Shown here piece by piece: positions 33,273 through 36,151 of a stretch of DNA of 38,502 nucleotides; the first letter of the stretch is position 1; each line of letters begins with the position of its first letter. A model generated the notes under the pieces. The model searched no databases and had not been told where the DNA came from. It saw only the letters and a list, made by a program, of their open reading frames with translations. The DNA comes from Candidatus Bathyarchaeota archaeon ex4484_205 (GTDB taxonomy: Archaea; Thermoproteota; EX4484-205), in NCBI GenBank assembly GCA_002255045.1, contig NJEE01000002.1, positions 1 through 38,502 on the forward strand, read 5' to 3'. Both the position numbers and the translations under genes were made by a program.

Positions 33273-34733
33273 TTATCCTTTTGCCACTCCGATAGGAGTC
33301 AATCGGACGACTTTCTTGGAGAGGCCGGCATTATGTGCTGCTTCTACAACTTCATCTGCACTCTTATAAGCACCAGGAGCCTCCTCTGCTATAACTCTCA
33401 TGCTGGCAGCCATAACTAAAATACCACGTTTCTCCAGATCACTCCTCACCTGACTACCCCAATATTTCCTTGTTGCCGCTTTGCGACTCATATATCTCCC
33501 AGCACCATGAGCAGTGCTCCCAAAACTGAGCTCCATTGCCCTCTCAGTACCTACAAGTACCCAGCTTGAGGTACCCATACTTCCCGGTATTAATACTGGT
33601 TGTCCAACATCTCTATAGTCAGGAGGAATGAGAGGATGGCCGGGTGGAAACGCGCGTGTCGCACCCTTTCTATGAACTACAACAGTTTTACGACTTCCAT
33701 CAACTTTATGTTCTTCAACTTTTGCAATATTGTGACATACATCGTATAGTAGATTCAAGCCAAGTTCCTCATCACGTTTTCCGAACACTTCTCGGAAGCT
33801 TTCCCTAACCCAATGCGTAATAAGCTGTCGGTTCAAGAAGGCATAGTTTACTGCACATTTCATTGCCTTAAAATATTCCTCACCTTCTTTACTCTTGAAA
33901 GGTACGCATGCTAGCTCGCGGTCGGGTGGATGGATTCCATGTCTGTGCATTGCCTTTTCCATTATTCTCACATAATCACTTGCAATTTGATGCCCAAAAC
34001 CTCGGCTTCCAGTATGGATCAAAACAACAATTTGACCTACATGAGTGATTCCAAATTTCTTTGCTATGGATTCATCAAATATTTGATTCACAACATCAAT
34101 CTCCAAAAAGTGGTTTCCGCTTCCCAATGTACCTAGTTGAGGGGCACCTCTCTGTTTAGCTCTATCACTCACAAAAGAGGGGTCAGCATCCTCCATTCTT
34201 CCTTCTTCTTCAATATGCTTAGCATCCTCAGGACGGCCGTATCCACGATCTATTGCCCATTCAACACCTTCTACAACGGCACGCTCAAGCTCATTAATAC
34301 TCAATCTGAGTTTCCCCCTTGAACCTACTCCGCTCGGAACATTTCTAAAGAGGGATTCAAGGAGTCTAGACAGTAAAGGACGGACATCTTTCTCTTCTAG
34401 TGTCGTGGTTAGAAGACGGACTCCACAGTTTATGTCATAACCCACGCCACCGGAGGATATTATACCTCCCTCTTCAATATCGAATGCTGCAACACCACCT
34501 ATACAGAAGCCGTAACCTTCGTGAGCATCACCAAGGGCGATGCTAAATTTTCTTATGCCAGGCAAAGTGGCTACGTTAGTAATTTGTTCCAAGGTTCTAT
34601 CTGTCCTCATCTTATCAAGTAGTTTTCTGGAGGCGTAGATCCTTGTAGGGACACGCATGCCTCTTTTATAGCTTTGAGGAATTTCCCATATGTAAGGAGT
34701 TATCTGATTGATTCGACCTGTGAAAGGACTCAT
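33273..34733 (-). CDS. rtcB: RtcB, tRNA-splicing RNA ligase
   Basis: Joins tRNA exon halves after the splicing endonuclease has cut, using GTP and Mn2+. GGVGYDINCGVRLL holds the metal-binding Cys103; LGSGNHFLEIDVV and IHTGSRGFGHQIASDYV follow, and STAHGAGRYMSRK (about 407-419) carries the histidine that is guanylylated. 486 aa, full length. Archease, which makes RtcB multiple-turnover, is encoded 1 kb away at 35729. Confidence 0.96.
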   Translation of the reverse strand: MSPFTGRINQITPYIWEIPQSYKRGMRVPTRIYASRKLLDKMRTDRTLEQITNVATLPGIRKFSIALGDAHEGYGFCIGGVAAFDIEEGGIISSGGVGYDINCGVRLLTTTLEEKDVRPLLSRLLESLFRNVPSGVGSRGKLRLSINELERAVVEGVEWAIDRGYGRPEDAKHIEEEGRMEDADPSFVSDRAKQRGAPQLGTLGSGNHFLEIDVVNQIFDESIAKKFGITHVGQIVVLIHTGSRGFGHQIASDYVRIMEKAMHRHGIHPPDRELACVPFKSKEGEEYFKAMKCAVNYAFLNRQLITHWVRESFREVFGKRDEELGLNLLYDVCHNIAKVEEHKVDGSRKTVVVHRKGATRAFPPGHPLIPPDYRDVGQPVLIPGSMGTSSWVLVGTERAMELSFGSTAHGAGRYMSRKAATRKYWGSQVRSDLEKRGILVMAASMRVIAEEAPGAYKSADEVVEAAHNAGLSKKVVRLTPIGVAKG

Positions 34734-35543: not shown

Positions 35544-35650
35544 TGGCGCCGGGGGTGGGATTTGAACCCACGTGGCCACAAAGGGCCACGGGCTCTCAAG
35601 GCCCGCGCCATGGACCACAGATATGTGTATCCGGACTTGGCTACCCCGGC
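35544..35650 (-). tRNA. tRNA-Ser(TGA) with an intron in the D-loop
   Basis: Acceptor GCCGGGG/CCCCGGC, anticodon stem CGGGC/GCCCG with loop CTTGAGA (anticodon TGA), long variable arm GTGGCC/GGCCAC, T arm GTGGG-TTCAAAT-CCCAC, G73 and encoded CCA. The D stem GCC/GGC encloses 29 nt instead of about 11. Some 17-18 nt (about 35610-35627, CACATATCTGTGGTCCAT) are extra. GGAT can pair with GTCC, leaving a 3-nt bulge ACA and a second bulge ATG, a relaxed bulge-helix-bulge. A loss of function is unlikely since all other parts are intact. Confidence 0.88.
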
Positions 35651-35728
35651 TTCCTTAATGTATTGGCAGGAAATATCTCAAAAATATTTCTTAAGTTTAA
35701 ATTGAAGACTGAGGGGATTTAAATTGGG

Positions 35729-36151
35729 ATGAGATACAGATTTCTTGAGCATACATCCGATGCCTATGTAGAAGCTGAAGGAGATACTTTGGAGGAGGCT
35801 TTCGTAGAGGCAGCGAGGGGTATGTTTGATGTAATAACGGATCCTTCCACCATTGAAATATGTGTAAAAAGGGATATTACAGTAGAGGCAGAAGATCTGG
35901 AGAGCTTACTTTATTCCTGGTTGGAGGAACTGCTCTTACTATTTGATATTGAAGGCCTTGTAATAAATGATTTTAGTATAATAATTGAAAAAAGAAGTGG
36001 AGGATATATACTTCAAGGAGAAGTAAGAGGAGAACCCTTCAATCCCTCCAAACACCCTCCTGAGACTGATGTGAAAGCAGTGACATATCATGGAATGAGC
36101 ATAAAGAAAACTAACAACAAATATGTAGTTAGAGTGCTTTTTGATATCTGA
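35729..36151 (+). CDS. Archease
   Basis: Small acidic protein that activates RtcB by speeding guanylylation. The N-terminal MRYRFLEHTSDAYVEAEGDTLEEAFVEAARGMFDVITD is the family signature, with the metal-binding acidic residues; LESLLYSWLEELLLLFD and PETDVKAVTYHGMSI follow. 140 aa, complete. It is divergent from tRNA-Ser and 1 kb from rtcB, and convergent with the histone gene (7-nt gap). Confidence 0.95.
   Translation: MRYRFLEHTSDAYVEAEGDTLEEAFVEAARGMFDVITDPSTIEICVKRDITVEAEDLESLLYSWLEELLLLFDIEGLVINDFSIIIEKRSGGYILQGEVRGEPFNPSKHPPETDVKAVTYHGMSIKKTNNKYVVRVLFDI

Follow-up and report, generated by a model that had tools for sequence, protein, structure and literature searches.

Background

Archaeal tRNA introns outside the canonical site have reportedly been described at 20/21, 22/23 and 25/26 by Marck and Grosjean and by Sugahara et al. 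Positions 22/23 and 20/21 are listed among the non-canonical archaeal sites, and the heteromeric EndA enzymes found in intron-rich lineages are the lenient type (PMC4090602). Known archaeal tRNA introns range from 11 to 129 nt, with a median of 15 nt (PMC3218864), and an archease-rtcB operon is already known (PMC3973293).

The interrupted tRNA-Ser(UGA) gene

The window, the whole stretch of 38,502 nucleotides analysed here, is contig C108 of a 1.28-Mb draft genome estimated to be 90% complete with 6.9% contamination; its closest relatives in the comparison belong to families f2-f4 of the same order. It encodes a tRNA-Ser(UGA) that very probably carries a 17-nt bulge-helix-bulge (BHB) intron at position 22/23, which would be cut by EndA, with the exons joined by RtcB with the help of archease. 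The locus comprises the following features.

35547..35650, (-): tRNA-Ser(UGA) gene (Rfam RF00005, 50.7 bits, and stems read from the sequence)
35544..35546, (-): encoded 3' CCA of this tRNA (read from the sequence)
33273..34733, (-): RtcB tRNA-splicing ligase (PF01139, E 2e-175)
35729..36151, (+): archease, the RtcB cofactor (PF01951, E 4e-48), divergent from the tRNA and 78 nt apart

The RF00005 match at 35650..35547 (-) compares with a gathering cut-off of 29 bits (Rfam), and the coordinates given in the earlier note, 35544-35650, are exact when the encoded CCA (35546..35544) is counted. ARAGORN, run on the window, reported two of its three tRNAs and did not call this one, a case of a tRNA-Ser(UGA) with a D-arm intron being missed by common gene finders. 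The precursor is 104 nt long without CCA and would shorten to 87 nt once the intron is removed; the same tRNA measures 84-87 nt in relatives that lack an intron. The surplus of about 17 nt lies in the D-arm, in agreement with the 17-18 nt excess noticed earlier, and the stems elsewhere are perfect, as had also been claimed: the acceptor stem GCCGGGG/CCCCGGC (7/7) is followed by UA and the D-stem GCCA, the anticodon stem CGGGC/GCCCG (5/5) encloses the loop CUUGAGA with the serine anticodon UGA, and the T-stem GUGGG/CCCAC (5/5) encloses the T-loop UUCAAAU, next to a long V-arm. No second tRNA-Ser(UGA) was found among the 28 tRNA matches above the cut-off in this 90%-complete genome.

The intron and its bulge-helix-bulge motif

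All D-arm deletions of 10-31 nt were enumerated, keeping pairs 10-12/23-25, A14, G15, G18 G19 and A21. BHB geometry was scored as exon helix strand, bulge XX|X, inner helix, intron helix strand and bulge XX|X; this cut rule agrees with EndA-RNA structures, where the second base of the bulge acts as nucleophile (PMC12397907). Just one of the 26 mature-compatible cuts, the removal of the 17-nt ACAUAUCUGUGGUCCAU at 22/23, combines a 4/4 central helix with two 3-nt bulges. The elements assigned by this scoring are as follows.

35610..35626, (-): predicted 17-nt intron ACATATCTGTGGTCCAT, position 22/23; no other mature-compatible cut has both the 4/4 central helix and the 3-nt bulges (shuffle P ~0.005)
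35629..35632, (-): central helix, 5' exon strand GGAU (G18 G19 A20 U20a)
35612..35615, (-): central helix, intron strand GUCC
35626..35628, (-): 5' splice-site bulge AC|A, cut between bulge bases 2 and 3
35609..35611, (-): 3' splice-site bulge AU|G, cut between bulge bases 2 and 3

The GGAT/GTCC helix with bulges recognised in the earlier note is this central helix, GGAU/GUCC. The inner helix is CAU/GUG and the outer helix is partial (three of the first four pairs). A full BHB, defined in the shuffle test as a 4/4 central helix, at least three inner pairs and a sensible mature D-arm, is reached by 0.4-0.7% of shuffled or random inserts (P about 0.004-0.007). The insert fits best at 22/23, where the 3' strand of the D-stem borders the loop, and not in mid-loop. 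The junction itself may be off by one base, since shifting both cuts back by one position would leave the D-stem fully paired (A13-U22).

Removal of the intron would restore a standard tRNA, with a predicted mature D-arm GCCA-AGUCCGGAUA-CGGC. The mature D-loop AGUCCGGAUA resembles those of intron-less relatives, and its AG..CGGAUA pattern is the same as in the intron-less tRNA-Ser(UGA) GCCUAGCGGAUAAGGC (L030). At 13-22 the mature tRNA is predicted to have A.C in place of a Watson-Crick pair; A13.C22 also occurs in the tRNA-Ser(UGA) of a Helarchaeota contig (L062), which was read as GCCA..GGAUUA-CGGC, and a mismatch at 13-22 (G.A) is usual among the other tRNA-Ser compared.

Two longer cuts were rejected. 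The 24-nt cut at 15/16, modelled on the Ser(GGA) and His introns of the same genome (central helix GCCA/UGGU), was discarded because it leaves only three D-loop bases and no G18 G19, and the 31-nt cut, in which the D-stem is self-paired, was set aside on the same grounds.

A genuine intron located further up the D-loop, such as a 16-nt one excised around G18/G19 to leave AGUCCGGUCCA, is very unlikely, although it would keep the four-base D-stem perfectly paired (GCCA/UGGC) and GGUCCA D-loops are known in other tRNA-Ser (L038, L040, L043). The 16-nt cuts giving the GGUCCA product form 3, 1 and 2 of the 4 central-helix pairs and never all four, no GGUCCA-leaving cut with a perfect D-stem has a BHB, and the homologous introns of other families all lie at 21/22 or 22/23.

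Splicing machinery

The RtcB and archease genes flank the tRNA-Ser(UGA) gene, one on each side. Three EndA-like genes are encoded elsewhere in the genome.

C76:913-1170: EndA-like gene, catalytic Tyr-His-Lys present
C60:13459-13713: EndA-like gene without the catalytic His, with KPAK where the His is expected
C95:2354-2608: third EndA-like copy, full catalytic triad

The best match of the C76 protein is Aeropyrum pernix EndA (3p1z_B/3ajv_B, E 2e-50). Separate genes for a catalytic (C76) and a structural-type (C60) subunit are thus present, and the enzyme would be of the heteromeric crenarchaeal (alpha-beta)2 type. The other genomes of the order mostly carry two EndA copies, versus three here, and the C95 copy may be a paralogue or contamination. 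The earlier note had predicted an endonuclease of relaxed specificity and called for typing of its subunits: the genome holds a crenarchaeal-type catalytic subunit and a His-less one, a pair consistent with that prediction.

From these components we infer the course of cleavage and ligation and the EndA subunit make-up. The pre-tRNA-Ser(UGA) made from the gene would contain the 17-nt intron, located between 22 and 23. GUCC at the intron end would pair with exonic GGAU, which includes the invariant G18 G19, to form a BHB with bulges ACA and AUG; EndA would cut both bulges between their second and third bases (AC|A and AU|G), and RtcB with archease would join the exons into the 87-nt tRNA described above.

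Other tRNA introns in the genome

The type and position of this intron are already known in archaea. At 17 nt it lies near the known median, inside the 11-129 nt range and at a listed site outside 37/38. The rarity attributed earlier to a D-loop site of such minimal size does not hold, given that 22/23 is a listed position (PMC4090602), that 17 nt is close to the median of 15 (PMC3218864) and that the same genome contains at least five other D-arm introns, in tRNA-Ser(GGA) and tRNA-His (both at 15/16), tRNA-Ile, tRNA-Phe and the L024 tRNA.

Further irregular tRNAs were observed. The L021 tRNA, whose TGT anticodon would be that of threonine, has an apparent anticodon-loop intron and a T-loop insert, GTTCAAACATCAAAGGAACAAATCC. 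The tRNA-Asp(GTC) at L022 carries a variable-region insert, and a second, intron-less tRNA-Asp(GTC), possibly contamination, lies at L015. Across all contigs of the genome, none of the 28 over-threshold matches could be identified as a tRNA-Leu; the genes for leucine tRNAs may lie on contigs absent from the assembly, or be split, permuted or laden with introns.

Introns at the same site in other families

Counting the window, seven families supplied nine tRNA-Ser(UGA) genes with an intron at 21/22 or 22/23. The six other families of the phylum are f20, f27, f39, f46, f48 and f51, where the insert follows GGAUCAA, GGACUAA or GGACCAA and precedes GGCGC. The central helices are GGAC/GUUU (f20), GACU/GGUC (f27), GGAU/GUCC (f39), GACC/GGUU (f46), GGAC/GUCU (f48) and GACU/GGUA (f51, 3/4 pairs), and the inner helices comprise two to six pairs of differing sequence (UAGA/UCUA, UGAGU/ACUCA, CCUU/AAGG, UGA/UCA). 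Shuffle P values per gene range from 0.00005 to 0.013, and each cut in the six families leaves an ordinary D-arm. Together with the BHB of the window gene, these introns support the claim, first made in the earlier note, of a D-loop intron in this tRNA-Ser: on the combined sequence evidence the tRNA intron is real, non-canonical and almost certainly spliced.

In all cases the BHB exon strand includes G19, mostly as G18 G19, so that the intron pairs with bases that later form the D-loop/T-loop elbow; this pairing may delay elbow folding until splicing.

An unspliced tRNA-Ser whose permanently enlarged D-loop folds as a hairpin is extremely unlikely. Minimum-energy folding of the unspliced precursor does give such a hairpin, in another register of the same hairpin (CACA/UGUG, with a one-base A bulge) and not as the BHB. 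Yet the BHB is significant against shuffles, other families have this site interrupted by unrelated sequences of 16-27 nt, and D-loops are normal in intron-less orthologues. The D-loop left in place, 27 nt in the folded model and not the 29 nt stated earlier, would disturb the D-loop/T-loop elbow. That the gene is a decayed tRNA broken by an insertion is barely conceivable, despite the estimated 6.9% contamination of the draft genome, as all other stems are perfect, the CCA is encoded, the gene is the only tRNA-Ser(UGA) found in the genome and its context is conserved.

The gene belongs to a wider pattern, in which a single site of tRNA-Ser(UGA), 21/22-22/23, turns up interrupted in one family after another. 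The sister family f2 has syntenic orthologues that lack the intron, so either the window lineage gained it or f2 has lost it. Adjacency to archease identifies orthologues of tRNA-Ser(UGA), and the repeated interruption of a gene marked in this way makes it a usable case for weighing repeated gain at favoured sites against inheritance with loss.

tRNA-Ser genes beside archease

In the window, as in 12 of 58 relatives, no more than 160 nt separate archease from a tRNA-Ser(UGA or CGA). Within 250 nt, such a pair occurs in 14 of ∼47 sampled families (f1, f2, f8, f10, f20, f27, f29, f33, f36, f37, f46, f48, f50 and f51), a non-random sample because some loci were chosen for high archease scores or as new families. 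These tRNA-Ser genes are often divergent from archease and often intron-bearing. A tRNA-Ser is also close to archease in a Thermoprotei MAG (L063) and a Helarchaeota contig (L062). The archease-neighbour loci are listed below.

Window 35547-36151; L133, L136, L145, L147, L154, L161, L165, L168, L175, L179, L182, L189: archease-neighbour tRNA-Ser loci
L209, L210, L212, L215-L219, L222, L223, L228, L230, L231, L233; also L062, L063: further archease-neighbour tRNA-Ser loci

The Helarchaeota tRNA-Ser(UGA) beside archease (L062, 5707-5877) apparently contains three inserts, in the D-arm, the anticodon loop and the V-arm.

By our own estimate, random placement of four serine genes in 1.6 Mb would give such proximity in roughly 0.1-0.2% of genomes. 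A literature search found no published account of a serine tRNA beside archease; its repeated location there seems undescribed, and this neighbourhood may prove more valuable than the intron itself. A conserved regulatory pairing is an unlikely though conceivable explanation: a promoter region shared by the two genes would couple tRNA splicing to archease expression, and the D-arm intron would serve as a checkpoint by keeping G18 G19 masked until it is spliced out.

Comparison with known systems

The window gene adds a clear D-arm intron from a poorly known archaeal order. Like the introns of the six other families, it interrupts the same tRNA, at a site within one base, with an exon strand at G18 G19, and the genes of those families are likewise usually near archease. 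Those introns differ from it in sequence and length (16-27 nt), and D-loop length moves the register by one base in three of the six families. Like the archaeal introns at 20/21, 22/23 and 25/26 (PMC4090602), the window intron combines a 4-bp helix with two 3-nt bulges, is short and occupies a listed site, 22/23. A heteromeric EndA in an intron-rich lineage is common to the known non-canonical intron systems and, on our reading, to the window case, which differs from them in host lineage and sequence only.
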